In this document: in pieces, positions 7,819 to 54,991 of the stretch
Layout of the letters: each line of letters opens with the position of its first letter
How positions within the stretch are numbered: the first letter of the stretch is position 1
NCBI RefSeq assembly: GCF_000001735.4
Contig: NC_003075.7
Coordinates: 13,765,001-13,829,000, forward strand
Reading direction: 5' to 3'
Length of the DNA stretch: 64,000 nt
Source of the DNA: Arabidopsis thaliana
Taxonomy: Eukaryota; Streptophyta; Magnoliopsida; Brassicales; Brassicaceae
Translations under genes and position numbers: made by a program
Notes under the pieces: generated by a model
What the model saw: the letters and a program-made list of their open reading frames with translations, nothing else
Told to the model about the DNA's origin: nothing
Databases searched by the model: none

Positions 7819-10800
7819 CTATTTCTGGCTACTGCTCTTCTTTTTCAGTAAATTTCCAAACTTCCGAAGCAAAGGCTTCTTCTTTTTCTGTTGTTGGTCC
7901 TTTGAGACCACATCTTCTGTTTGTTCTGCTAAAGACAAACCATTACTTAACTGATCAAAGTTCTCACTACCTTCTGCTTTCGAGTCGACTTCTTCTTCAG
8001 CAAAGTCATGCTCTGTGTCTCTCTCTGAAGAAGCTTCTCTCTTTTCTAAATGATACACTTCGCTTTCCACGGTGTCTTTATCTTTACCTTTCTCTCCTTT
8101 TCCTATTACTTGAACGTTGTGAGCTGACCAATGAATTGTTGTGTCATCTTTCAAATGTCTATCAATAGCTTCCAAAGGACTTTCTTGTACTTTTTGTTCT
8201 CCGGTACTGTTATCAAAAGGATTGGTATTAGTAATCTCTTCCCCTTTCTCATGTGTGGAAGAAGCTTCTTCTAGCAACTTAGATAACTCTTCGATCTTCT
8301 TAAGTGCAGAAGCCTCTCTGGCCTTGAGCTCATAGTTATCGTGAATTACGGTCTGCAATTCTTTGTCAAGTAAACTCTCTTTCATCTTTGACAACTCCTC
8401 TATCCTCTTTGCAGCTGAAGCTTCCCGCACCTTAAGCTCCTGATTTTCGTTTCCCTTATCAATCCAACTCTGTTCTAGATGTAACAACTCATCAATCTTC
8501 TTCAAAGATGATGCCTCCTTGGCCTTAAGCTCCTCATTTGCCTGAAAAACACCCTCCAACTCGTTCTCTTTATCAAGTAAACTCTGTTTAAGATTTTTCA
8601 ACTCTTCAATCTTCTGAAATGATGATGCAGCTTGGGCCTTGAGCTTCTCGTTCTCAACAACTGCGGTCTTCAGCTCCTTTTCTTTATCAGCCAAAGTTTG
8701 TTTAACATCGGACAGCTCCTCTGTTGTCTTAAGCGATAAAGCCTCTTTGGATTTGAGCTTCTCATTTTCGAAAACAACATCTTGTAACTCACTCTCTTTC
8801 ACGAGCAAGCTTTTATTTAGATTTGATAGCTCTTCAATCTTCTTTTCGGCCAGAGAGTCTTTGGCTTTAAGGTCCTCAATCTCAAGAACCATATCATGCA
8901 GCTCATTTTCTTTATCAAGAAGATTTTCTTGCAGCTTTGCTAACTCTTCAATTTTCTTAAGATAAGCAACCTCCCTTTCTCTAAGCTCTTCATTTTCTTG
9001 TGTGGAACTCTGAAGTTTGGCTTCTCTATCAGCAAAGATTTCATCTACCTTTGATAACTCCTCAATCTTCTTCTGATAAGCAGACTCCTTTTCTCTTAAC
9101 TCTTCATTTTCCTGAACAACGGTCTGCAGTTTGGCTTCTTTCTCTACTAATCTTTCATTCGACAATGACAACTCCTCGATCTGCTTAATATTTTCAGCCT
9201 CCCTTTCTTTGAGCACCTCAACTTCTTGAATACTGCTCTGCAATTTGGTTTCTTTATCAACCAATCTCTCGTTCACTGCTGACAACTCTTCAATCTTCTT
9301 CAGACAAGCAAGCTCCCTTCTTCTAAGCTCCTCAGCTTCTTGAACAGTGCTCAACAGTTTGGTTTCTTTTTCAACCAAGCTCTCTTTCGCCGCTGACAAC
9401 TCTTCAATCTTCTTGAGATAATCAATCTCCTTAACTCTGAGCTCCTCCGCTTCTTGAATAATGTTCTGCAGTTTTGTTTCTTTATCCACCAAGCTTTCCT
9501 TCACTTTTGACAACTGATCGATCTTATCAATAGAAGAAACCTCCATTTCTCTGAGTTTTCTGTTTTCTGCAGCAGTGTTCTTTAGTTCATCTTCTTTCTC
9601 CACCAAGCTTTCTTTAAGTTTCATGCTGTCAGCTTTCGCTACTTCAACTATTTCCTGCAGATCCTTAATCTCCTCCTCAAGTTCCTTACGATTAGTTTGC
9701 ATTTTGGCATCTTCTTCTTTTGCGGCACACGCCTCAACTTCCTTAAGATGAAGCAAATTCTTCACTTTGCTAAGTTCTTCCTGCACAGAGAAATTTCCAT
9801 CTTCCAATTTCTTCACACATAGCATCAAATGAAGTTCTCGCTGTTCCCACTCAGTCTTAGAATTAAAAAACTCATTCTCAGTGTTTTCCAAACTACTTTT
9901 CAGGCCATCAATCTCGTTTCTTGCATCTTCAAGCATTTTCCCATGCTTTTCATTTGTATCTTTCTCAGCCAACTTCAAACTTTCAATCTGGACTCCACAA
10001 AGTTCGAGCTCCGCTTGACATGTTAAGAGCTTCTCCTTTGCTTCCTTTGCTTCAACAGATACTTCTTGCAAATCCAAAGTTAAACTCTCCATAGCTTTCT
10101 TGATTTTCTCTTCTTCCTTCTTACAGTTTTCCAACTCTGTCGCAAGTTCTGTCTTTTCACTTAATAGGTTCTGAATCTGTGATGTTGCAGTCTTTTCATT
10201 CAGCAAAGCTCTAACCTTTTCCCCTTGGGTGGTTTCAAGGTCAGATTTTATTGACTCAACAAGCTTCTCAAGTTTAGAAGTTTCTTCTTTTGAAATGCAA
10301 ACCTGGTGTTGAGATTCTTCAAGATCATTTTCCTGCCTTCCAATCGTCGTCACCAGAGACTCAACCTTTTCTTTTAACGTAGCATTACCCAACTCTGCCT
10401 CATGAAGTGCATGATTGTTTTCCTCCAGCTGCTTCATAGCTAAATCTAAAGATTCTGAAGCAGATGTCTTTAACTCCTTTGATTCTTCAACTTGTTTATC
10501 AACCTCGTTCTTCCACTCTGCTGCTAAGTTATTAGCATAGGATTCAACCATTTTTGCAGCTTGAAGATCAACGTGGAGCAGTTCAATGGACTCTTCTTGA
10601 TCCTTCAGCGTATTCTCGAGGATGCTAACTTTCTCAAGTTTCCCTCTCAACATCTCAATTTCAGACTTCAGTTTAGACACAACCTCATCATCTTCATTAC
10701 TTTTCTTTTGTTCATCTGAACCAACCAATGCTTTTAAACGGCTTAACTCAGAAGAAAGAATCTCCGCCTTCTCAGCCTGATTTTCAGCAATCTTAGTCGC

Positions 10801-17208: not shown

Positions 17209-17228
17209 GTCCCTTCGGGGACATCCGA

Positions 17229-17260
<32 letters not shown>

Positions 17261-17310
17261 GGCCCCTGCGCAAGGATGACACGCATAAATCGAGAAATGG
17301 TCCAAATTTT
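17209..17310 (+). ncRNA. U6: U6 spliceosomal snRNA
   Basis: The 102-nt gene begins GTCCCTTCGGGGACATCCG, giving the 5' stem-loop. It contains the ACAGAGA box (GATACAGAGAAGATTAGC) and the AGC triad, and ends GGTCCAAATTTT in a T-run that serves as Pol III terminator (17307-17314). I see no difference from the Arabidopsis U6 sequence as I know it. With an intact USE and TATA it is probably an expressed copy. It converges on the 3' end of NARA5. Confidence 0.97.
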
Positions 17311-17752
17311 TTTTGTAAAATTTTCCAGATCAATAATTTACATGAAGCAGAACTCTTTCTTGTTTCAGAGCTTTCGGAGAGCTACTCTAAGCCTCTGCAT
17401 GTTCGAAATTTCTTGGCCTACCCTCTGTTAATAACTTCACCAGTGCGAATCATATAGAAACTGGACAAGATTCTGTCTTACAAAATGTCTGAGTTTTGTT
17501 ATAACACTGTCAATGCTAAACATGCTTATGGGATTTCAATTTTGCATTTCACAAAAACTTAATAATAGTTTCTGCAAGAATATTCTATGAGACCATCAAA
17601 TCAAAAACAAAAAATGTCTCAAACTTTGTCGGAAACATATACTATATACTAAAATGTTACATACAAGATTACAAGTCAATTGCAAAAGGCACTACTACAT
17701 GAAGACAAAGAATGAATCAAAAAGCTAAAAATCACAAGCTAAAGAGGTTTCA

Positions 17753-41400: not shown

Positions 41401-42556
41401 AAACATTAACATTAAGTGGCGCTGAATTTACAGATAGTAGCTTGCAAATGGTATCCACACTACACCAGCGTGAATTGCATTACTCATATAATAGAATCTA
41501 GATTGCAAGACACATCCTGTCACACTTACAAAGGAGAAATAGAACAGAACTTCCGGAGGATAAAAAATAGTAAAAAGAGGATATCTACCTTTCTCAACAC
41601 AAAAGGTCGTTTCAGCTCAAGTTCCAAAGTATGGAATGCACCAATCTGCGATACAACACATCAGCACAGGAAAATCTATAGAATAAAAGGCGGCCTCGCA
41701 TCTACCTTTACGTGCTCATTCTCCAGGATATTTTTGCCACGTATGCGCAAAACAGATCCGTCTTTGTCATAGTCCACCTCCTAATTGAACAAATAAAGAG
41801 AACTGAAGACAATCAGATTCATTCCATGAAATTAGACTAAGATATCTTCCAATGTCAAGAGTAGCAAGATTAAAGGGCAAAAGAAAACCATAAAAAGAAA
41901 CATATGTAAGAAATATCGATTTTTATTACGCAAATGACTGTAAAGCAATATAGTGCATTTATGGTCATTGTTAATAGGTTTCTACAATGCAAAGGTATAA
42001 ACAAATTGGCATACCAAGCCCTTAGAATCATACCTCAACTTGTACTTCCAGCTTCAGTTTAACACGTTCAGAGTCTCTTCCCCCACCAGGTATCTCTCTC
42101 TGAACTTTTCTGATAGCAGGCATGATACTAAATTGGTTAACCTTTACTCCTTAAAAATTTTCATGAAACTATTACAAATCAGTGAACTTTTAATGTGATA
42201 CATGATTTTAATGAGAGAAAAAAACAAAGCATGTTTGCCTAACCCTTCAATGGAAGTGGCTCAAGAAGTTGACAAGGAAAACACCATGTAAGAAACAAAG
42301 GCAGTGAAAACCGAAAGGAGACAGTACCTGAAAGTGACAGCCATTACACTATCGCCCACAGCAATCAAGTTATAAGCATACCAGAGATCATCAGAGTCCT
42401 CTGCCACCATCTACCCTCAATTTAAGTTGCCAACACCCACAGGACAAAAATCAAATTTCAGCTAAGCATTTGAATTGCACACGAGGAAAAAGGAATCAAT
42501 CAAACCTTAACGCTTCCGGGTCCATTACGAACAAAATCCCTGCGAACGATCTTCAT
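38459..42556 (-). CDS. PEL1: Pelota homologue, no-go decay ribosome-rescue factor
   Basis: Sixteen coding exons: 42556-42506, 42410-42328, 42109-42034, 41780-41706, 41645-41589, 41135-41090, 40600-40525, 40348-40273, 40181-40149, 40039-39971, 39839-39733, 39317-39245, 39059-39021, 38929-38835, 38726-38620 and 38532-38459. They give 378 residues. The three eRF1-like domains are recognisable: N-terminal ([17 protein letters not shown] start, residues ~1-130), central (~136-260) and C-terminal (~265-370). The central domain lacks the GGQ tripeptide, as expected for Pelota rather than eRF1. It acts with HBS1 to split stalled ribosomes. A 5'-UTR intron (~42742 to 42575, CAG|GTTTGT to TTAG) is likely. 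Several exons are very short (33 and 39 nt). Confidence 0.95.
39004..39062 (-). repeat. Direct repeat flanking PEL1 exon 13
   Basis: The 17-mer GTAGGTCAAAGCTCTCA (minus strand) spans the acceptor of the 39-nt exon 13 and recurs directly after its donor. The donor therefore reads ACT|GTAGGT, and a second potential acceptor (CTGTAG|GTCAAAG) sits at the exon end. Confidence 0.85.
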
Positions 42557-42929
42557 CTCTCAAGGTATGTCCACTAACAGAGTCCAGAGACACACAAGGA
42601 CAGAGATTAACACTAGTCTCGAACAAAGGTTCAATCTTTCAGTTCTCATGTTACAGCAATTTAATCAAAAGAGAGACCAATGCACTGGAATTGGTAAAAT
42701 CGGCGAAACAACACGGTGAAGTAAGATACATAAATTACAAACCTGTTGGAAGAGTTACAGATACAGGGCTTCAGCTCAGACTCCGGCTCCGGCTCGGCGA
42801 TAGCGAGAACTTGTATCCGTCGTCTATCGATTGAATCAAAAGCAAAAGGGTCAGTGGTCGTAAGCTGCTGCAGAGATTCAATCCGTAGACACGCAGTTTC
42901 GACTTCGAAGATTCGTTCCACAGCTTCTC

Positions 42930-44695
42930 AATTTTAATTACCAGATGTCAAAAGTCAAAATAATAAAAAGCTATTATATTTATAGTAAAAAAAAAGGTAA
43001 AATAAATTCAGTAGAAAAAAATAGAAATAGGAATTGCCCAAGTTTTAATCTCTTGAGAAAAATAGAAATAGAAAATCATAAATATTTGGAAAAGTGTGTC
43101 AAAAATTAGTTGAGCATTTTTGAAAAAATAATATCATATAACCACCTTATTATCAAACAAAACGATACTATCCGACAGAAAAATTAAACCTTAAATCTCT
43201 ATTATTGATTTTTTTAGGCAGAAAAATTGTCTAGATTTTATTTATATGCGAGTTCAAAATGGGGTTTTCTAAATAAAATTTTTAAAAAAAAAAACTTCTC
43301 AATGTTTAAGATAAAATAAAAATAAAACAAATTATCGGCTACAATATCTAAAGTCTATGAAACTTTATTTATATGATTAAGTATGACATGTCGTATTTCT
43401 CTCATTTAGCTTTGGGATTAAGATACAGCTGCACATAATAAACATCCTACAAGTTTTAAAACCGTCTAATCAGAGATATTTCTGATGCATATAATATTGT
43501 CTATTGTAAAATCATCTTTCAAACTATAAAATAAGAGTATTCCACTAGTTATGTGTCATCAAAGATTAGGTCAGACCTATGATAATTATCAATTATTTAA
43601 TTCAGATTGTTATAATCGACTACAACTCATATCAACTTATAAATTGCCTAACTTATATGATTCAATATATTATTCATTAAATTAATGTTATGTGACTGTA
43701 TAACATCAGCCAAGTTGTGAACACAAAAAGCTTGATAATTGATATAATCCTCAACAATTTTATAACCGATACCTTTTTTATTTTCTTCACACCAAACGGT
43801 AGCCTTTTTTATAATATCTCTTCGTCGGAGAATAATAAGACAAGATATTTGATATTCTCATACAGAAATATATAAATCTAGTTCCTATATATACTTTAAT
43901 TAATAACAGCTATAAAATCTATATCATAAATCACAGTGCAATGATATGTCAGATCATTTGTGATTAGAGCTCCAATCATATACTAGTAAATTCTTAAATC
44001 CATCTCCTTGTTATCGATTTTGTGTGTTTCCCAACAAATATGTTAAGTGCAAATATTAAAACCTCCAACCAAACAAAATATATCACAATCTATGAATAAT
44101 ATTGACAACTACTAAATAGATCGTAAGTTTTAGTTTATGCAAGACTATACATACAGTAGTTTTGTAAAGTTACTTATATTGGCAAACAAAATATAATTCT
44201 GGTATTCAGTTTGAAAACATACGTTAATTTACACAATATAGTTTTGTAACAACAGATTTAAACTCCATATTTTGTAAACAATTGTAGGCTATAGATTAAA
44301 ATATAGAAAACTCATACACGACTACTCATACTGGACCCAGTCATATTGTAAGGTAAACTGCGTATTAAACGTCGTGTAATCAGTCAATTATGATTCACCA
44401 TGAACAGCAATACAGCATAATATTATAGTAGTAAAATACTTTAAAATCCTTTTTTTTCGTTTGACAAAGCGCTATACTAAAAAATATAGCAAACTCAAGT
44501 ATACACTAAAATAAAATTAGTACATTTGCTAGTCTTCACCTCTAGAAGACAAGAGTATGTCGTTTTCTTGACAAAGACGATTTGGTTTTGGTGAGTTATT
44601 ATAGTAAATAAATATAATACTAATAAAAATGTATTTATTATAATCTATAGATTAGAGAGACAGCTAAACGCTAATGTGTAGTTTATGCGCGTACG
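42930..44695. other. AT-rich intergenic block before the micropeptide array
   Basis: About 1.8 kb of strongly AT-rich DNA after the PEL1 leader. No open frame with coding character, no inverted termini and no recognised transposon. The last ~250 bp form the promoter of the first array gene. Confidence 0.55.
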
Positions 44696-44701
44696 ACGCG
44701 G
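44696..44701 (+). promoter_or_regulatory. CGCG box upstream of micropeptide gene 1
   Basis: ACGCGG with a second CGCG-containing motif (TGCGCG, 44686-44691) just upstream, about 245 bp before the ATG and ~100 bp before the TATA box (tatataaa, 44801-44808). CAMTA/SR transcription factors bind such CGCG boxes. It is part of a block (44651-44705) also found upstream of gene 2. Confidence 0.6.
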
Positions 44702-44944
44702 TTAATTTTGTTTTCTCTTTTTTTTTTAAAGTAAACAAAGATATTAAAATAAAATAAAACACGAGACCGTGTCACTAACTAACAGAGACGTAGCTACACA
44801 TATATAAAGAGATCGAGAGGTCTTCATTTCTCACAAGCCACAACAACACCAATCACACTTCTCAAAAAAGATCAGAGATTTCTAGATCCTTCTTCTTCTC
44901 CTGCAAATTCATCTACCTGAATCTTCCAACTTTATAAATCGATC

Positions 44945-45157
44945 ATGATCTCCGTCGTAATCATCGCTGAGTTACTAGTAGAGTACACGACGGCTCTCGC
45001 GAAACTAACCGCCGGGATTCTTCCATCGAGACGGCGAGGCGATAGTAACGTTGTACGGATTGGTGGTTTCTCTCTGCCTTGTCCTTCTCCGTCGAGTAGT
45101 AGTACTAGTCGATCATCTGCGATTCCAGATTTCTCTTCTCATCTCGTTGATTTCTGA
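44945..45157 (+). CDS. Tandem micropeptide family, member 1 (70 aa)
   Basis: Intronless 70-residue frame from ATG 44945 (tcgatcATGATC). The N-terminal 27 residues are hydrophobic to amphipathic (MISVVIIAELLVEYTTALAK), with two Glu, so a clean transmembrane helix is uncertain. A basic stretch (RRRGD) follows, then RIGGFSLPCP, a Ser-rich linker and the invariant end IPDFSSHLVDF. It has eight more residues than its siblings, mostly as a Ser/Thr insertion. It is one of four paralogues in the same orientation. From memory, Arabidopsis genes in this position (At4g27652, At4g27654, At4g27657) are uncharacterised and strongly stress-inducible. No biochemical function is known to me. Confidence 0.85.
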   Translation: MISVVIIAELLVEYTTALAKLTAGILPSRRRGDSNVVRIGGFSLPCPSPSSSSTSRSSAIPDFSSHLVDF

Positions 45158-45159
45158 TC

Positions 45160-46490
45160 TTGTGGAAGACGAAACAGATTTTGTTTTCTTCTCTCTCTTT
45201 TTTTTAAATCTATTCGAAGATTGGATTGGACGGCTGAGATTTTTCCATGTGTGTCTCTTCTGTCTCCCTCTCTTCCTCTAGATTTTAAAATCGCTTATTA
45301 GATCTTTGTAAATCGGTATCTCAATATAATAATAGTGGTTATGAATTTTTGATGAACTACTCTCTCATCTTCTCCTTGCATTTCTCAATTTCTGATTTTA
45401 CCTAACTGTGATGATGGCTCATTTGACGATTTTTGGTCTCGTTTTGGTGACGTCAGAAAAATGGATATAAGTCGCATTTGACTAATTAAGTGCACTAGTT
45501 TATCTTTTTTTCACTCTGAATGTTCAACATATAAGAATTCGTTTCCATGTTTTGGTCCTTATGGACGGTTGAAAACAGTTACGAGAATTCGAAATTAAAT
45601 AAAATAAAAATAACAATCATAGGTAGCAAACTAAATGATAAGACCAGTTAATGATGAAAATTCAATAATTAAGTTAATTTGTTTTTTGATTAAAAGAAAC
45701 AAAAAGCATCGTTTAAGAAAATAACAAGAAAACAAATCATACGTGATTTTACAAATTTATGTTCTTGTCCCGTCTCATTACCAAACGGGAAATTAAATCT
45801 TGGTCTAGATGGAAATGCGTTTCATAATAAAACAAGAATTTGAAATCGGTAATGAAACAAGATGGGACGAAAACTGAGATAGGATATGGAATGGAAATCT
45901 GGTCCACACATTTATCGGAAGGTGGACTTTAGCTTTCAGGAATTAAAGAAGTTGGATAGATTTTCCGTGAGTACACCAAATTTGTAGTATTAACAGAAGT
46001 TGAAATTACGGTGTGAACTCTAGTAGCTACAACTCCCAAGTCTTTAACTACATTTGATATATAATGTTTTGGAACATTCGTTCTCTACTACTGATCACCA
46101 CGTTTACATCACTTTTCTTTACTTGGTCTAGGTAATTTAATTTAGTACTCAAAGGTATATATATGTTGTACTGTCTTCGTCTATAGAGACTACCACGTCC
46201 ATTCTTATTTTGTTGGACGGTCCATTTTTAAGGATCAAGAAGATAACTAAAATTTTGACTTTTTAAATGAAAGCGGAGAAAACCAACACATTTTTATGCT
46301 TAATTAGGTCTTTTGCTAAACTTCACAAGAGAATCGAGTTATGAGACTACGTACGATGATGTGATAAAATCTCTCAGAATAAAGTTTTCATGACAATGAC
46401 GTATCTCCTAACTTATAATATTAGTAAACAAAATCCATTTGATTATCAGAAGATTAGAGGACACAGCTAATGCTATGCTAATGTGAACTG
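45160..46490. other. Spacer between micropeptide genes 1 and 2
   Basis: The first ~200 bp is likely 3' UTR of gene 1 and resembles the gene 2 3' flank (ggctgagatttttcc vs agctgaagattttttt). The rest is AT-rich, without gene-like signals. Confidence 0.5.
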
Positions 46491-46498
46491 CGCGTAAG

Positions 46499-46504
46499 AC
46501 GCGC
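46499..46504 (+). promoter_or_regulatory. CGCG box upstream of micropeptide gene 2
   Basis: ACGCGC, with TGCGCGT at 46489-46495, about 238 bp before the ATG and ~108 bp before the TATA box (tttataaa, 46612-46619). The surrounding block (gattagag...gctaatgtg...gcgcgta-gacgcg-ttaat) is shared with gene 1. Confidence 0.6.
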
Positions 46505-46741
46505 TTAATCATTTGTCAATGTGTAAAGCGAAAAATATTAAAAATATGAAACACGAGTCCGAGTAAAGTGACGATAGTAACGACGTAAGACGAGAAACTC
46601 TGGTCTACACCTTTATAAAGAGATAAGAAATCTCTCTCTCCCTCACAAGTTATACCAACAAAATTCCATCATCTTTTGTCTGAACTCAAGAGACATCTTC
46701 TAGATCATTATTCTCCGGCAAATCTTCCGAAAAAGTCGATC

Positions 46742-46930
46742 ATGATTTCCATCGTAATCATTACTGAGCTACTAGTAGAGTACACGACGGCTCTGGCTAA
46801 ACTTACCGCCGGGATTCTTCCGAGACGGCAAGGCGATGGAGACGTCGTTAGAATTGGTGGTTTCTCTTTATATTGTCCTCCTAGATCATCACCGATTCCG
46901 GATTTTTCTTCTCATCTCGTCGATTTCTGA
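46742..46930 (+). CDS. Tandem micropeptide family, member 2 (62 aa)
   Basis: Intronless 62-residue frame. ATG 46742 (tcgatcATGATT) has the same context as gene 1; the frame is open further upstream but without another ATG. Sequence order: MISIVIITELLVEYTTALAK, LTAGILPRRQGD, VVRIGGFSLYCPPRSS, PIPDFSSHLVDF. It is the closest relative of member 1, at a spacing of 1.8 kb and with homologous flanks, so the two look like products of a duplication that included the promoter. Function unknown. Confidence 0.85.
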   Translation: MISIVIITELLVEYTTALAKLTAGILPRRQGDGDVVRIGGFSLYCPPRSSPIPDFSSHLVDF

Positions 46931-47905
46931 TATAAGACGATTGTGGATTGTTTTTTTCTTTCTTTTTTTCACTACTTTTTTGATCGAGTTTTGTTTCTTA
47001 CACACTTTCTTTAAAATTAATTTGAAGAGTGACAGCTGAAGATTTTTTTCTCCCCTTTTGGAGATATTAAATAATTTAAAGATTTGTAAACCTTATCAAA
47101 TTATATAATAGAAATTTATGATTTTGATATCTTTATTTCTCTGATTTTCTTAATTTCTGATGATTGATCATCTATTCCATCGATCTTGTCCACAACTAGT
47201 GATGATTCCGAAAACTTGCTATGAGGATGACGATCATCACAGTCGGGCTCCTATCAGTAATTTTGCATAATCGAAAAGAGAGAAAAACGGATCGTTAAGC
47301 AAAACATAGTAGTAAGAAAATACTTGAACAAACGTGAAGTTTTGTGCTATTCCACCGCAAACTTTTTGAAACCATAAACCTATACTCGCAGCATATGAGT
47401 GAATCAGTGAACTATACTCTTGTCTGATATATTGATGCATTATTTCAAAAAAGTCAAAAGATTCGTTGACTGATTTTATAAGTCACCATAAAGATAATAT
47501 TTGCATTTATGTCATATTTCTAGGATCAATGCATTATCGAAAACAAATGAAAAGATCTGTGACTGATTTCTACGTTACCATTTGAATAATCTTTCGATTT
47601 ATGTCATATCCCTATGATCAATGAGTTTTCATAAGAATATTATTTGTACATAAGAAAAAGTGAGTTTTTTTTTGTGAATTTAAGAAGAAGTGAGTTTACT
47701 TAAGAATATTTTTTGAACTAAATTTAGGAAAATAATATATTGTAACTGGTGAAAATATCTCTGTGTTAAAATGCTCTAAAATAAGTCAGAGCAGATACGG
47801 TGTTAGTATTCTACATGTTTTTTTTAATTGGAGTATGGTACGAAGCACTGACTTCGTAAGTAACAGCTCACTTTTGTCTTCTTGCCAACACTCTGACTAT
47901 TATCC
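46931..47905. other. Spacer between micropeptide genes 2 and 3
   Basis: Probable 3' UTR of gene 2, then AT-rich DNA. A minus-strand frame at 47237-47440 has no support. Confidence 0.5.
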
Positions 47906-47907
47906 AC

Positions 47908-47924
47908 AACGCGTGACACGTGGC
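47908..47924 (+). promoter_or_regulatory. RSRE/CGCG box next to a G-box/ABRE upstream of micropeptide gene 3
   Basis: AACGCGT (47908-47914) contains the complement of the rapid stress response core CGCGTT. Two bases later lies CACGTGGC (47917-47924), a G-box with strong ABRE core. A further ACGTGT is near 47962. TATA (ctatataaa) lies at 48008-48016, and the ATG is 210 bp downstream of the CGCG box. Combined CAMTA and ABA/bZIP input is inference. Confidence 0.65.
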
Positions 47925-48123
47925 TGTTAGTTCATAAAGCCACAAATTAAAGAAACCAAATACGTGTACGAGTAACTTCTGGACCACTGGAGCTTAAAGT
48001 TATGGTCTATATAAACCCTCGAGTGGTCTGGCTTCAGATTTTCAACCACCATTCAATTTTCTATAAAGAGATAACAAACTTCAGAAACTTCTAGGGCCAT
48101 TTTTATTCCGGTGCATCCTAATC

Positions 48124-48312
48124 ATGATATCTGTTGTAATCATCACTGAGTTACTTTTGGAGTACACGACGGCTCTTGCTAAACTCACCGCCGGGGTTCT
48201 TCCGAGACGGCAAGGCGACAGAAATGTTATACGTATTGGCGGTTTCTCTCTGCCTTGTCCTCCTAGATCCTCACCTGTTCCAGATTTTTCTTCTCATCTT
48301 GTCGATTTCTGA
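48124..48312 (+). CDS. Tandem micropeptide family, member 3 (62 aa)
   Basis: Intronless 62-residue frame, MISVVIITELLLEYTTALAK, then LTAGVLPRRQGDRNVIRIGG, FSLPCPPRSSPV and PDFSSHLVDF. It is colinear with member 2 without gaps, and nearly all changes are conservative (I/V, L/V), which suggests purifying selection on the protein. It has the most complete stress-type promoter of the four. Function unknown; a membrane-associated or peptide-like role is possible. Confidence 0.85.
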   Translation: MISVVIITELLLEYTTALAKLTAGVLPRRQGDRNVIRIGGFSLPCPPRSSPVPDFSSHLVDF

Positions 48313-51300
48313 ACTCTGCGCTACGCCTTAATCTCAATTTTGGTTTTTCACCGGAGATTATGACTGCCAAGACTTTTTTCCCGGCGTCTGATCTCTCCGT
48401 CTGTAGAATACCTTTTTTGTATTTTCTTAAATTTTTTGTTTTGTTCCTGAATTTTGAATGGCTCAGAGTTGTAAAAGATGTATCGAATTATAATAGAGAC
48501 TATGATTTAACTCTTCATCTTCCTGCCCTGTGTTATTAGAAGCTGATAATTAATCATGTTTTAACATAAAGATAAACGCATTTGTCTGTTTAGGTTTGTT
48601 AACTGCCTCTTAACTCATTATTAGGCTACTGATTGTATTTCGATTCGTTGTGTTTGAGAGTAACAAATGAGTGTACTAACTTGTTTTTTAAAAAATTATC
48701 GTTTGGAGATTGCCATTAATTGTAAGTAGAATTAGTAAAATGAATAAAGCGGAATCGAACTATTAGAATTTTGTAATTAACTGAAGAGAATAAAGTTATA
48801 TACAAAGATAGGAATGTGTGTGTATGTGTTTTTCTGGCCCCATGACCATAAATAAGTAAAGTAACCTCTTACAAGGGTATGCTTGGACTCGGAGAGAGCG
48901 CACTACCGTAGAGACTAGAGGCCCTTCTAGAAAAGAAAATAAAATTTAAACAAAAGAAACAATATATTGTGTAATATGTCAGGTTTAATTGTATTGTGTG
49001 GAGGAAACAAACAAAAAAAAAAATTGTATTGTGTGGAGGATTTTCACTTTTTAGAGTTGAAAAATATATTCATATTTGTTTTTTTAAATCTAGTATGAAC
49101 AAATGAAATACTATATAGCTAATGTTAGGTGCGAAAATTTGATGAAAAAAACCTACACTTTTTTATTTAATCTTTTTTTACACTTATAATCATCAGTTGT
49201 AAGTTGTAACCATCCCAGTCCACACAAAAGAGTTAGGGGGAGAAAATTCATGCAAATCGAACCGGTATTAAAGTCAGGCTTTTCGTCTTACTATGTTTAT
49301 ATCTGTGGGCCATTACATCTTCTTCAGCCTTTAAGGCGATTTACTAGTATCTTAATTCAATTGCTCTTCAAACAGTTGATATGAGGTAGGGCATGACCAG
49401 CCAATTCGATTTTTCTAATAATTGAGCATTATTAGCTACAAGGGGGATGACCTGATTTATTACTTTTTTATTTAATTGATCAAATGTGTCAACGTTGTAG
49501 TTATATTGATATATACATGTAGAGAGTGAGAGAGATATTTGAGAAAATGGAAGTTTAGGTAGTCCAAAGCAAAGTGTATGGATTTTGTGAGACAAAAACA
49601 CAAACATCAAACTACTCGGAGACGTGTCTCTATTTAGGACTTGAATAACTTATGGCTGTGGTGTATTTCCTCCTCCCTTTTTTGATCTTTTTTCTTCTTT
49701 CTAATTTTGCAATTATGGAACCAAGACAAATGAATTGATCATTTACATTTCCAAGCTATCTTCCTTCCTATCTTTATCTTCGAGAATGGGTATAGTTTGT
49801 TGCAATTAACCATAGTTATTTATATACTCATTTGTTTCATGTTGCAATTAGTCTATGTTATGTTCTTCAGACCCGATCATTTTAAACATTTGTAAGTGTA
49901 TGCAATTCCATTTTTATACTATGAAAGCCGTGCACCCGATTTCTATCCATGTGGCTACTTTCTGAATTCTGATATATAAATGCAGTTTGGTTTCCTTCTT
50001 TTTTGTATGTTACACTTAAAAAGCAATTTAGGTTTTGCATGTATACATGTTTTTTTTGTTGCCTACAAAAGATGTGAAGTTGTGTGCACTTAAGGGAAAA
50101 AAATATGAAAAGGACAAATTGAACAAACAGCATTCGCTTAATAATCAACACTAATTTTCTGTGAAAACAACTTGCATCCACAAAAAGAATTAAAATCTAA
50201 AAAAGAAAAAAAAAACTGAAAATTTTGGGAAAACAGAAATATTAGGATATAAAATTAGTCACTACCCTAAACCTAAAGAATAGACTGAACAGAAATAAAA
50301 TTTCATTTTCTCTACCCTGTCATTTTCCTATTAAATTAACGGTGCCTAGAAACAAAAAAGAAGAAGGAAAAATAGTAATTGACTAACTAACAATAATATT
50401 CAATACTAGTATTTACTATCAAGGATAACTGAGACACACATACAATATATAATTATATACTAATACATAGTATAAATCTTTTAAAATTAGCAATAGTATT
50501 TGTTTAGGTTTAAAGGTTAATTAATGAATTAATTTAGATGTCATGGATTAAGGTCCCGTTTAAGATATTCAGTATTTTAGTTTTAAGCCTTAATTGTAAT
50601 TTAGAGTTAGAATTAAATTAAAAAAAAAAAAAAGAGTTAGAATCTAAGATTCAACAACGTGGTGAAGTATGAACAGTATGAGAAAGGCACCATTCACACG
50701 CGATTTGGCCGCCATTATGAGCTAAAACGCGTTATGATGTCAGCCGTTTATGTGTGGACTATGGACTCGCATATATCATTCGGCTACCATTTAATTACAT
50801 TATAATTAAGTGTTGATTAATATTATCATTCATGACCATTTATTTCCAATAGCACACAACTATCGGGGTATTTTTGAATTGAATTATCGTCTCTCTTATC
50901 TCATCAGTTCACTACAACTTGTTACAGCTATTATTGCCACTGTATTAATTCGTTTGGACCAATTGTGACATCTCTAATTGTCTAGTAAAGAAACATGTCA
51001 ACTTCCATCAGTATTTTATTGTTAGAGATTGATTTATACTAGTTGACTAGTTGTAATTGACTGATAATAGTTGGTATCGGATAGTATCTCGTTATAATTT
51101 TCTTAGCTTCCAGCATTTCGAATTTTAGAATATTGAAATTCAACCATTTATGATGATTCAATAATATTTTTCATATGTTTTTTGATCTTTAAATTGTAAG
51201 TTACAGTCAAGGGTTAGAAATCAGCATGTTAGTTTTTTTCTTTTTTGTTCTATTCTGTCATCTGTATATATAATAAATATTTATGGACAAACAGTATTTA

Positions 51301-51540
51301 AAACAAGATCCAGTGTTTGGTGTCCTAAAAAGAACAACATCCTTTTCAATTAGTTCATTTTTGACTTGTTGGAGATTCTAGAACCAAGAGACAGTTGAGA
51401 TAATCGTGTAAAGGTCAAATTTAGCTCTTTACATATAGATAGTATTATTATTATTTTTTGCTAAAAAAAACATATAGTAATATATTTTAAATAACAAACA
51501 CAAAAACAGTAGAGAATTAGAGATATTCGTACCGTCCAAG
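48313..51540. other. 3.2-kb AT-rich spacer before micropeptide gene 4
   Basis: No supported gene, RNA or transposon. Two more CGCG sites stand out in otherwise AT-rich DNA: ACGCGA near 50699 and the palindrome AACGCGTT at 50726-50733, about 1 kb upstream of gene 4. Minus-strand frames at 49368-49610 and 49882-50181 look like chance. Confidence 0.5.
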
Positions 51541-51543
51541 TCC

Positions 51544-51549
51544 ACGCGG
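51544..51549 (+). promoter_or_regulatory. CGCG box upstream of micropeptide gene 4
   Basis: ACGCGG within tccacgcggac, 232 bp before the ATG, the same relative position as in the other three genes. A weak TATA-like ctataat lies at 51624-51630. Confidence 0.55.
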
Positions 51550-51780
51550 ACAAAAATTGTGACACGAGGCCACACACACACACAAGAATCTCTAGTCCAC
51601 ACCCACATGACCGGCCACATCGCCTATAATCCCTATCCATCCTATAACTACTACTTACCTTCTTCAATATCCATTACCCAAAAAAAATCACCCATCCGAA
51701 TATTCAGCGATCCCTGAATACTTTTTCCACAAGAACTTTTTGATACTCTACATTATTCCTCTGATTAGTTTTTCTAAACA

Positions 51781-51966
51781 ATGTTTGCAATAGTGATATT
51801 TGCTGAGCTACTTGGCCAGTACACGGCTGCTCTCGCCAAAATTGTCTCCGGAATCCTTCCCCGGCGTCCCCATGATCGGAGTGTTATTTACATTGGTGGT
51901 TTCTCCTTACCTCGTCCTTCTTCTTCTCCGGTTCCGGACTTCTCTTCTTATCTCGTTGACTTTTAA
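51781..51966 (+). CDS. Tandem micropeptide family, member 4 (61 aa), most divergent
   Basis: Intronless 61-residue frame from ATG 51781: MFAIVIFAELLGQYTAALAK, then IVSGILPRRPHDRSVIYIGG, FSLPRPSSSPV and PDFSSYLVDF. It keeps the family landmarks (ELL, YT-x-ALAK, GILPRR, IGGFSLP, PDFSS-LVDF) but replaces the Cys of members 1-3 with Arg and His with Tyr. It lies 3.7 kb beyond member 3. The conservation argues for a real coding gene although it is short. Confidence 0.8.
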   Translation: MFAIVIFAELLGQYTAALAKIVSGILPRRPHDRSVIYIGGFSLPRPSSSPVPDFSSYLVDF

Positions 51967-52248
51967 GTTCTAGTTCGTTAGATTCTATCTCACTTTGTAA
52001 ATCTTGGTTTGTCAAACTGTTTTTTTTTTTTCCACAACTTGTAATCTCCAATCTAGTGATGGTCAATAGTCTTTGACTAACAGTCATACGAAGAGTGAAA
52101 TCTAAAATCATTTATATATGAAACTCAATAACCGATTTTACAAAAAAAAAAAGTTTCTTCAGTAAACGAAATATTCAGCTGAAGATGAGGGAAATAGAGC
52201 ACAACATTACTCTTATTCATCAATCTCAACACCACATGAGAGAAGTCT

Positions 52249-53027
52249 TCACTTCTTGGTGGTTACACGAAGGCCAGCAGCAGGAAGGTCCCGGTACAAC
52301 TTGCGTATAGGCTTCCATTTACTGTTCTCTAATGCCTCACAGTGCGGTGTAGCAAAACTAGCCGTCCAATATGCACAAGGCGCAACCACATCGCAGACAT
52401 AACAGTAACACTACACAGTAAACATTAAAACAATCATAAGACTCTGTTGTTACATTACACCAAATCTCAAACCCAAACAACTAAAAAAAGGACCAAGTTT
52501 TTTCAACATCCAAATAGATTATTACCTGATTACAATGTGATGAGTGTTGACTTGATTCAAAGGGGAATTTCAAGCAGAGATGCCTTGGATGTGGAAAATC
52601 CCTACAAGCCACCTAAATATTCGAAAACAGAGACATAAACCCTAAATCACTAATTGTGCTAAAAAGATGTGAAAAGCCTCAAAATTTTCAGACAAAACAG
52701 AGGACCCAAGAATCCTAATAACCAAACCTGGCCTTTCTCATGGACAATCGCCACGTCGTCGTCACATTCAGATGCAGGGCTATCGGAGAGCTTTCGTGCA
52801 TCAAATGAATCGTTGGGATCGAAATCGAGGATAAAGCAATCCTCTTTCTCTTCGAAAATCTTCATATCTTGTCGTGTTTTGAGACAAAATATACCTCTGA
52901 GAGGTGTTCCCTCTTCTTCTTCTTCCTCCTCCTTACTAAGTCTCTTTCTTCGCTTGCTTTTCGTTTTCTTCTTTGTCTCACATGGATCTGGTGTGATCCC
53001 CACTACAACTCTTCGCTTTCTCACCAT
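52249..53027 (-). CDS. Cys/His-rich putative zinc-binding protein, basic N-terminus
   Basis: Three exons: 53027-52728, 52612-52526 and 52410-52249, for 182 residues. The N-terminal 40 residues hold a likely nuclear localisation signal (KKKTKSKRRKR) followed by an acidic run. The middle has an acidic LDFDPNDSFDARKLSDSPAS region. Exons 2-3 encode a compact domain with CRDFPHPRHLCLKFPF, then HCNQCYCYVCDVVAPCAYW and a later HC, eight or more Cys with His, which should bind zinc. I associate this CYCYVCD layout with plant proteins of the RIN13 (RPM1-interacting 13) type, but that is unverified memory. A telo-box (complement of tagggttt) lies near 53227 in the likely promoter. Confidence 0.85.
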
Positions 53028-54040
53028 TTTTTTCCTTCCTACGACTGTAAAGTTTCGATCTTTTTGTTGCTTTTATTGAAAGAGTTGTTCGAAATTCGCA
53101 AATGACCGTTGTTGTTCCTACACAAGCACCCCAAGCAGCGGTGGCAGAGGATTTGATCTCATTTTTGAATTAGAAATATTTGATTTTATTTTTGAATAAA
53201 TCGTGATTAGAGAGGAGAGTGTTTTAGGGTTTACAATTAGTTAAGGCCTTTTCAAGACCTTTATATCAATATGGGTAATAATGCTAAATCCCAATTTATT
53301 GGCCCAAATAATGAGACATGACTCAGCCCAGTAAAGTATGCAAAATACATTTAGGTATTGAACATATCGGGGGGAGATATGTTTGTGAATGTCCCCAAAG
53401 CATATCTTATGAACGATTCCAAAATCATGTTTGGACATTCATTCACCCGAATAAGTTAATTTAGCAACACTTTTAAATCTAGACTATTACATCATTTGGA
53501 GTTTTCGTAGAAACTTCAAATTACGTGTCTTAATATTCCTGTCTCTTACTCTACGTCACATTCATGTCTATGGCGGGGCTTTGAATAGTTGTTCGACTAA
53601 CTATGAGTTTTGGTTTTAAGGCTTTGTGTGAAGACGTATTTCTTCATTGGATTCAACATGTGTCAAGGACTGTTTCTATGTTCTTTTGACTATTACCTTC
53701 TAATTTAATTATAAAATAATGGAACCGAATTTTTGATTTAAGATTTTTCTCTGATTGGTTGTTACTCCTATCAGATCACGTTTACTTGGAAAACAAAACA
53801 GATTTTTCTCGATTGGTGTATTTTAAGAAAATACTCACAGATTATTTAGTGTCGTCTCCTCAGCAATTACATATCCAAATATTAGTGCCATTATTTCATT
53901 TCTTTTGTGGAAAAGACTTCTCTAAAATCTCTCTTTGTTGTTTTTACTTGCATCACACACTTTAAGCTATAAAGAGAAACATATGCTTATGTACAACAAA
54001 CAGTACCTCCAAGAAACATTAAACAAGAGGATAATGTTGA
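53028..54040. other. Promoter of the Cys-rich gene and HSP21 3' flank
   Basis: Leader and promoter of the Cys-rich gene, then AT-rich spacer. Nothing else recognised. Confidence 0.5.
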
Positions 54041-54047
54041 TCGAGTC

Positions 54048-54895
54048 CTACTGAATCTGGACATCGATGACTTTGCGTTCGACTTTGGTCTTAGGGATAG
54101 TGATAAAGAGGACTCCGTTCTTGAGCTCAGCTTTGATCTTGTCTTTCTCACAGTTGTCTGGGAGCTGAAGTCGTGTTCCATATGAGCTAACGCTTCTTCC
54201 AGACCAAGAATCATCACTGTCTTCCTTCTTCTGCTCTCCTTTGATCACAAGTACGTTATCTTCTACAGAGATTTTGACGTCTTCTTTAGAGAGACCAGGC
54301 ATGTCGAAACGCATCTTGATCTCGTGTTCTTCCTCTTTGATGTCCCACGGTGCACGAATCTCTGACACTCCACTTCCTCCTCTGTTTCTTCCTGAGACAG
54401 GCATAGTGTCCTCGAACATCCTGTCCATAGTATCTAACATTTGTCGCATCGTCCTCATTGGTGACAAAGGATCCAACAATCCTGTGGTTAGATTAAAACA
54501 GAACATTGTTTCAGTTCAAAGCAGAGGAAGAGATTTTCGATTGACAAAAGCTGAGTTCATAAAAACAGAGCAATGTTTTAAGTAATAAGCAGAGGATGTA
54601 GTTTTTATTTATACAAGTGAAGTCCGTTTAGTTAGTTGAACGTACCGAAAGGAGAGACGTCCATGGTTAAGCGTTGTTGAGGTCTTTTTTCGACACTTGA
54701 TCCTTGGTTCCCTTTTTGTTGTCCTTGCTGAACAACATCAATGGAGTTTTCTCTCTGGTCTTGAGCCCTGATCCGGCTAGGGATCTTCCGTGGGAACGAA
54801 ACCGAGAACGGTGTAGCGGACTTCGATGAGACAGAAGGAGATGGAGCAAGAGGTGAACATAGAGCCGATGCAGCAAATGAGAGTGTAGAAGCCAT
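54048..54895 (-). CDS. HSP21: Chloroplast small heat shock protein HSP21
   Basis: Two exons, 54895-54646 and 54481-54048, for 227 residues, the known HSP21 length. A Ser-rich transit peptide occupies roughly the first 43 residues. The plastid-specific methionine-rich amphipathic helix follows ([19 protein letters not shown]), then the alpha-crystallin domain ([44 protein letters not shown]). HSP21 is an ATP-independent holdase that protects thylakoid membranes and plastid transcription under heat. A trimeric heat shock element lies upstream (separate entry). Confidence 0.97.
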
Positions 54896-54991
54896 TTGTT
54901 TCGAGTATGAGCCAAAAATATCGCTGAGTGAAGATTAGAAAATTCTAGTTCTGAGTTTGTTGAGTATCTACTACAATTGTAGAAGTGAGTG

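Follow-up and report, generated by a model that had tools for sequence, protein, structure and literature searches.

A family of small proteins with two conserved ends, encoded in part by a tandem array with CGCG promoter boxes in Arabidopsis thaliana

The stretch analysed here (the window) comprises 64,000 nucleotides (64 kb) of Arabidopsis thaliana (contig NC_003075.7, positions 13,765,001 to 13,829,000 of the forward strand) and contains a tandem array of four short genes that start with ATG, lie on the plus strand, have no internal stop and align with one another from end to end. An original prediction, made from the letters alone, had described them as four intact frames sharing the landmarks ELL, YT-x-ALAK, G-[IV]-LP, IGGFSL and PDFSS-[HY]-LVDF, and every one of these holds in the alignment of the four copies. 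In window positions, the array contains the following.

44945..45157, plus strand: copy 1, an open reading frame (ORF) of 70 amino acids (aa), by gene order probably At4g27652
46742..46930, plus strand: copy 2, an ORF of 62 aa that probably encodes the true product of At4g27654
46836..47039, plus strand: an ORF of 67 aa that overlaps copy 2 out of frame
48124..48312, plus strand: copy 3, an ORF of 62 aa, a candidate for At4g27657
51781..51966, plus strand: copy 4, an ORF of 61 aa, the most divergent tandem copy and likewise a candidate for At4g27657

The four copies are true coding genes, in which the frame, and not merely the DNA, has been kept. The ratio of nonsynonymous to synonymous substitution rates (dN/dS, Nei-Gojobori) is 0.12 to 0.22 in the five of six pairs for which it can be computed (dS is saturated between copies 3 and 4) and is not near 1, which bears out the prediction that selection acts on the protein. 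When a further copy on chromosome 5 (copy 5) is included, dN/dS is 0.09 to 0.26 in nine of the 10 pairs, those with computable dS, and dS is high (0.5 to 1.8). These ratios cover the Arabidopsis copies, and orthologues were compared as proteins only. In all 10 pairs, the amino acid differences (8 to 22 per pair) are fewer than the minimum of 1000 neutral simulations, each a random placement of that pair's own number of nucleotide changes. Over 61 codons of copies 1 to 5, 29, 11 and 41 columns vary at codon positions 1, 2 and 3, respectively. The corresponding counts are 13, 2 and 15 in the predicted N-terminal helix (27 codons), 15, 9 and 19 in the middle (24 codons) and 1, 0 and 7 in the C-terminal tail, where third positions differ in seven of the 10 codons and second positions in none. 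Both ends of the protein are under selection.

The family is larger than the four members originally counted. It has at least six in the Arabidopsis genome, the tandem four and two on chromosome 5:

contig C5, 21972558-21972746, plus strand: copy 5, 66 to 83% identical to the tandem copies, which we take to be At5g54145
contig C5, 8405817-8406026, minus strand: the sixth, remote member, recorded as At5g24570, with expect (E) values of 0.0009 to 0.0017

The remote member retains MITVAIAAELLEEYTAAL...PNYTAFLLNF. A DNA pattern for E-L-L-x-[EQ]-Y-T matched the whole genome 13 times, at the six members and at seven places without resemblance beyond the motif, and reversed-pattern controls matched 16 and 23 times; since the bare pattern is not enriched, only its context identifies members. 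Protein searches returned 45, 72 and 89 matches (the latter two sets contain the chimeric P0073); such a search needs shared five-residue words, and the spread of the family may be wider than found. All organism-named matches are from Brassicaceae except five from Tarenaya hassleriana, a species of Cleomaceae, and the frame is therefore conserved outside Arabidopsis, as had been anticipated. The N-terminal core [EG]-[LIVM]-L-x-[EQK]-[YF]-T is present in all six genome members and in 81 of the 89 relatives. No Pfam family reached its curated cut-off in a scan of copies 1 to 4 and the remote member (the best match of copy 2, YnaM, scored 12.5 bits against a cut-off of 27), in agreement with the earlier statement that the array proteins contain no known domain.

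A tree of 71 rows and 65 columns, with 32 of its 68 inner branches drawn open, places the remote member with orthologues of nine other Brassicaceae (support 100/100), copy 4 with proteins of A. lyrata, Thlaspi and Brassica (97/82) and copy 5 with those of Arabis, Cochlearia, Sinapis and others (99/98); the placement of copies 2 and 3 was not resolved in it. Because these supported clades extend across Brassicaceae, the remote, copy 4 and copy 5 lineages probably predate much of the radiation of the family Brassicaceae. Consecutive record numbers occur in Sinapis (N665_0365s0045 and 0047), A. suecica (As12g013600 and 013610) and Tarenaya (LOC109116601, 602 and 608), and two Brassica carinata records (P0047 and P0075; 125 or 135 aa) are gene models that join two tandem copies, either because annotation has fused them or because the double protein exists. 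Together, the adjacent numbers and the joined models suggest tandem arrays in other species too.

The protein is predicted to have three parts: an N-terminal helix (residues 2 to 25), a flexible Ser/Pro linker and a fixed C-terminal tail of 10 residues. Mean column entropy over 65 aligned rows is 0.72 for residues 1 to 27, 1.51 for residues 28 to 52 and 0.67 for residues 53 to 62. The N-terminal helix is thus as conserved as the tail, for which a docking or sorting role had been proposed; that role is plausible, but the tail accounts for just one of the two conserved ends. The pattern [SAT]-x-[LF]-[VIL]-[DN]-[FL] stands directly before the stop in all six genome members and in 82 of the 89 relatives, all 82 of which have Pro at −10. 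Two further relatives ending AFVLNF, counted by eye, bring the intact tails to 84, and the five exceptions (P0054, P0055, P0061, P0066 and P0070) look like gene models that have been shifted or spliced. Typically the tail reads P-[DN]-[FY]-[SAT]-[SA]-[HF]-L-[VL]-[DN]-F-COOH and ends at the stop codon; of 65 rows, 63 have Phe as the final residue and two have Leu. The claim of a C terminus fixed to the last residue therefore stands for most relatives but not as strict invariance, given the divergent ending of the sixth member and the few relatives that finish with NL or DL.

AlphaFold models copy 3 as one helix (residues 2 to 25), with block confidence (predicted local distance difference test) of 93 and 91 over the first 20 residues and 52 to 64 over the remainder and a predicted template modelling score (pTM) of 0.33. 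The same helix is predicted for At5g24570 (blocks 78, 84 and 70; pTM 0.27), together with a short helix at residues 64 to 67 in the tail (last block 72). Glu is found at position 9 in 59 of 65 rows and at position 13 in 61, and position 20 is Lys or Arg in 63; a helical wheel puts E9, E13 and K20 within an arc of 40 degrees. The remote member has an additional Glu12 in this segment. The usual limit for a transmembrane segment is a hydrophobicity of 1.6, and the maximum 19-residue Kyte-Doolittle mean is 1.65 to 1.81 in copies 1 to 5 and 1.14 in the remote member, i.e., borderline for a membrane span in the former and low in the latter. No basic residue precedes the hydrophobic stretch, A-L-A precedes K20, and Arg follows at position 28 (50 of 65 rows) and position 29 (50 of 63). 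Linker length varies among relatives, and RIGGFSL in the middle of the protein is also conserved within the main group. In two Cochlearia groenlandica proteins (P0001 and P0004), a VVRIGGF module is internally duplicated and both protein ends are kept, which suggests that this module is a separable unit. A search of solved structures gave one match, 9d01_A (a-iTHR-201; E of 0.022, with no stretch passing alone), which we take from its name to be a designed protein and which was rejected as a helix resemblance.

CAMTA-type boxes are present upstream of every tandem copy (positions without strand):

44687..44701: two boxes, GCGCGT and ACGCGG, at −258 and −249 relative to the copy 1 ATG
46490..46504: two boxes, GCGCGT and ACGCGC, at −252 and −243 relative to the copy 2 ATG
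47909..47914: one box, ACGCGT, at −215 relative to the copy 3 ATG
51544..51549: one box, ACGCGG, at −237 relative to the copy 4 ATG

An (A/C/G)CGCG(T/C/G) box therefore lies at −258 to −215 in four of four tandem promoters, and at least one box in each also has the narrower form (A/C)CGCG(C/G/T); both consensus forms are given for CAMTA proteins (PMC10417383). In the copy 3 promoter, AACGCG at −216 is the core of the rapid stress response element (RSRE), CGCGTT, in reverse, and a CACGTG G-box adjoins it at −207. Like the CAMTA/RSRE target genes of PMC10417383, the array combines CGCG boxes in all four promoters with stress induction of some members; it differs in that the exact CGCGTT is found upstream of copy 3 only and in that the chromosome 5 members lack CGCG within 1 kb.

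We infer that At4g27652, At4g27654 and At4g27657 belong to the array. TACGTA at −306 is listed for At4g27654 in PMC4322638, and CACGTG, which copy 3 carries at −207, is not listed there for that gene. Between 43000 and 52700, TACGTA occurs only at 46348..46353, upstream of copy 2, and at 48230, within the coding region of copy 3, and the lone upstream site ties At4g27654 to copy 2. A distance of −306, if counted from the transcript start, would put that start at 46654 and so some 40 bp past a TATAAA at 46614 (the available text does not give the reference point). At4g27654 is described as "a 67 amino acid unknown" in PMC3817919, and the frame at 46836-47039 is the sole plus-strand ATG ORF of that length from 42900 to 52700 (an alternative of the same length lies on the minus strand at 47237-47440) and exceeds the true 62-aa frame. 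The entry for At4g27654 is thus probably copy 2 read in the wrong frame, an error that would explain why PMC4112631 labels At4g27652 and At4g27654 "unrelated unknowns." One protein record (P0008; Q8L943) has the correct copy 2 frame, with one residue different. At4g27652 is probably copy 1 by gene order, and At4g27657 is either copy 3 or copy 4. At4g27660 had also come into question for copy 4, but this code, cloned and tested as a candidate transcriptional regulator (PMC5485742), may instead belong to the minus-strand frame at 52659-53042. Literature searches by neighbouring locus codes, sequence stretches and topic words found nothing.

The original prediction of an undescribed system does not survive: these are real, conserved, already catalogued genes with locus codes and entries in stress tables, and knockout and overexpression lines of At4g27652 have been published (PMC4619001). 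In that paper At4g27652 is one of five multiple-stress genes studied, within a set of 197, and is described as intronless, upregulated under many stresses and lacking a known function. It is treated there singly; the present analysis adds its family, the conservation at both ends of the protein and the boxes in the promoters. At4g27652 is also listed as universally stress responsive (PMC2925951), and a table of predicted stress genes places At4g27657 34th and At4g27652 37th (PMC2213690). At4g27657 is described as responsive to singlet oxygen (PMC12536220) and is upregulated in early phenanthrene exposure (PMC5073745), At4g27654 is upregulated in some but not all comparisons of nNOS lines (PMC4112625), and a herbivory module includes At5g54145 as a candidate hub (PMC4231836). 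Published expression tables thus handle several members as separate stress-responsive unknowns, and no description of these genes as one family was found in the available, mainly open-access literature. What is new is their union in one family, the probable wrong frame of At4g27654 and the CAMTA-type CGCG box 215 to 258 bp before the ATG in the four tandem promoters. The one-family view with two conserved ends indicates the set of copies to be removed jointly and the frame to be tagged, and it speaks for keeping the C terminus free.

We tentatively propose, giving the idea slightly less than an even chance, that this is an unrecognised stress-response family of Brassicales in which two fixed elements, a helix and a free C-terminal motif on either side of a flexible linker, link two conserved partners, whether as an intracellular stress adaptor or as an alarm-peptide precursor, and which has been amplified as a CAMTA-wired tandem array. 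Our best guess as to its action, held a shade more cautiously, is a stress-induced intracellular docking protein with two working ends. A stress Ca2+ signal, acting via CAMTA factors at the CGCG boxes of the tandem copies, would rapidly lift transcription; within the cell, the hydrophobic helix, with E9, E13 and K20 on one side, might dock onto a membrane surface or onto the helix of a partner, leaving the free C-terminal tail to bind a second conserved partner.

Several observations weigh against this proposal. Neither knockout nor 35S overexpression of At4g27652 gave a visible phenotype (PMC4619001); redundancy could hide one, and if the proposal is true, the presence of six copies would explain the absent phenotype of a single knockout. 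Induction is not uniform across members: At4g27654 stands at 6.23 in flu, mostly near 1 elsewhere and −3.59 in cat in a table of reactive oxygen species responses (PMC3083342). At5g24570 shows a 2.33-fold increase in a comparison involving a sugar-response mutant (PMC2579432) and a value of −1.35 in a list of light-regulated genes (PMC3083342), and the remote member may therefore be regulated differently. Amphipathicity of the helix is weakly supported, because the helical moment of residues 2 to 26 does not differ significantly from shuffles in five of six copies (P of 0.14 to 0.35; 0.02 in copy 4).

The promoter evidence is also mixed. The window holds 16 (A/C/G)CGCG(T/C/G) sites, six of which are the array promoter boxes. 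Such a box occurs in 6.6% of its 300-bp stretches, giving a chance of about 3e-4 with copies 1 and 2 counted as one event, and CGCG fell in all four promoters in 0.25% of 2000 Markov simulations of 500-bp promoters; both figures are generous, the motif having been picked after the sequence was viewed. With 1-kb stretches, the enrichment is weak (0.211 cubed, or 0.009). The promoters of copies 1 and 2 are homologous: among the 10 promoter pairs of copies 1 to 5 (600 bp), they alone align beyond shuffles, and the copy 2 boxes lie inside the alignable block. No CGCG is found within 1 kb upstream of either chromosome 5 member, although At5g54145 belongs to the herbivory module, and CAMTA control is therefore not the whole story.

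The most serious alternative, which we regard as unlikely, is that the proteins are precursors of secreted or damage-released, phytocytokine-like signalling peptides, in which the conserved C-terminal 10 to 15 residues would be the mature peptide, the N terminus would target or anchor the precursor, the linker would be dispensable and stress induction would prime an alarm signal. The hydrophobic N terminus (maximum of 1.65 to 1.81 in copies 1 to 5), the Ser/Pro linker, shown by the entropies to be variable ahead of a conserved extreme C terminus, and the stress induction all resemble such precursors. Furthermore, four relatives (P0014, P0023, P0032 and P0043) bear the database name "Secreted protein," and A-L-A before K20 fits the −3/−1 signal-peptidase pattern. 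However, the N-terminal segment is conserved like the tail, unlike a cleaved signal peptide; its hydrophobic stretch has no basic residue ahead of it and contains Glu at positions 9 and 13 in >90% of the 65 rows; the remote member, with its extra Glu12, scores only 1.14; and RIGGFSL in mid-protein is conserved too. PROPEP, CEP, PIP and SCREW precursors are likewise small and stress induced, with a conserved C-terminal motif after a variable linker, but here the N-terminal segment is equally conserved and carries acidic residues.

More doubtful still is a strict sorting tail, i.e., a single-span membrane protein in which the N-terminal helix would cross the membrane and the cytosolic Phi-x-Phi-COOH end would be a trafficking or PDZ-type ligand. 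A predicted helix of 24 residues with borderline hydrophobicity, followed by Arg-Arg in most rows, and the nearly constant terminal Phe would suit such a protein, but two conserved Glu residues and a Lys or Arg lie within the helix, and the remote member falls under the usual limit.

An improbable reading is that of a microprotein, the lone interaction helix of a larger protein acting as its dominant inhibitor. Small size, a single predicted helix and stress induction recall plant microproteins, but six-frame genome searches with copies 4 and 5 (E of ≤10) found the family only, plus C1:11972390 (E of 1.33, taken as chance), and the seven nonfamily E-L-L-x-[EQ]-Y-T matches are unlike the family beyond the motif. 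Such an origin was rejected, as no larger relative of the helix was found in the genome by sequence.

Least probable by far is that the transcript itself matters as a conserved RNA or that the product comes from the overlapping +1 frame. In three of five copies the +1 frame is open from codon 21 onwards, and the recorded length of At4g27654 is 67 aa, but this openness is ordinary under synonymous recoding (P of 0.17 to 0.29 in the three open copies), the 62-aa frame is kept in Tarenaya, and the +1 frame, which would vary most at its own second position, is effectively refuted by the third-position variation of the 62-aa frame and by amino acid differences below every neutral simulation.

Other candidate functions were dropped. 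Mitogen-activated protein kinase docking with a Ser-Pro site was rejected, as the two patterns, a loose docking (D) site found in 68 of 89 relatives and [ST]P found within the final 30 residues of 71 of the 89, are too unspecific; by eye, the remote member has neither. Ligands of the RST-domain and ATG8 types, also considered, did not fit.

To the left of the array lies a minus-strand exon of eRF1_1 (Pelota type) at 42327-42410. To the right, the minus-strand frame at 52659-53042 encodes 127 residues rich in Lys and Glu, without a Pfam match, and is followed by an HSP20-domain gene on the minus strand (54048-54934, apparently two exons), presumably that of chloroplast HSP21. Elsewhere in the window, a U6 spliceosomal RNA gene lies at 17209-17311 on the plus strand (113.8 bits against a gathering score of 44), and positions 8001 to 10000 have the strongest strand asymmetry among 2-kb steps (GC skew of −0.33 and AT skew of −0.26).

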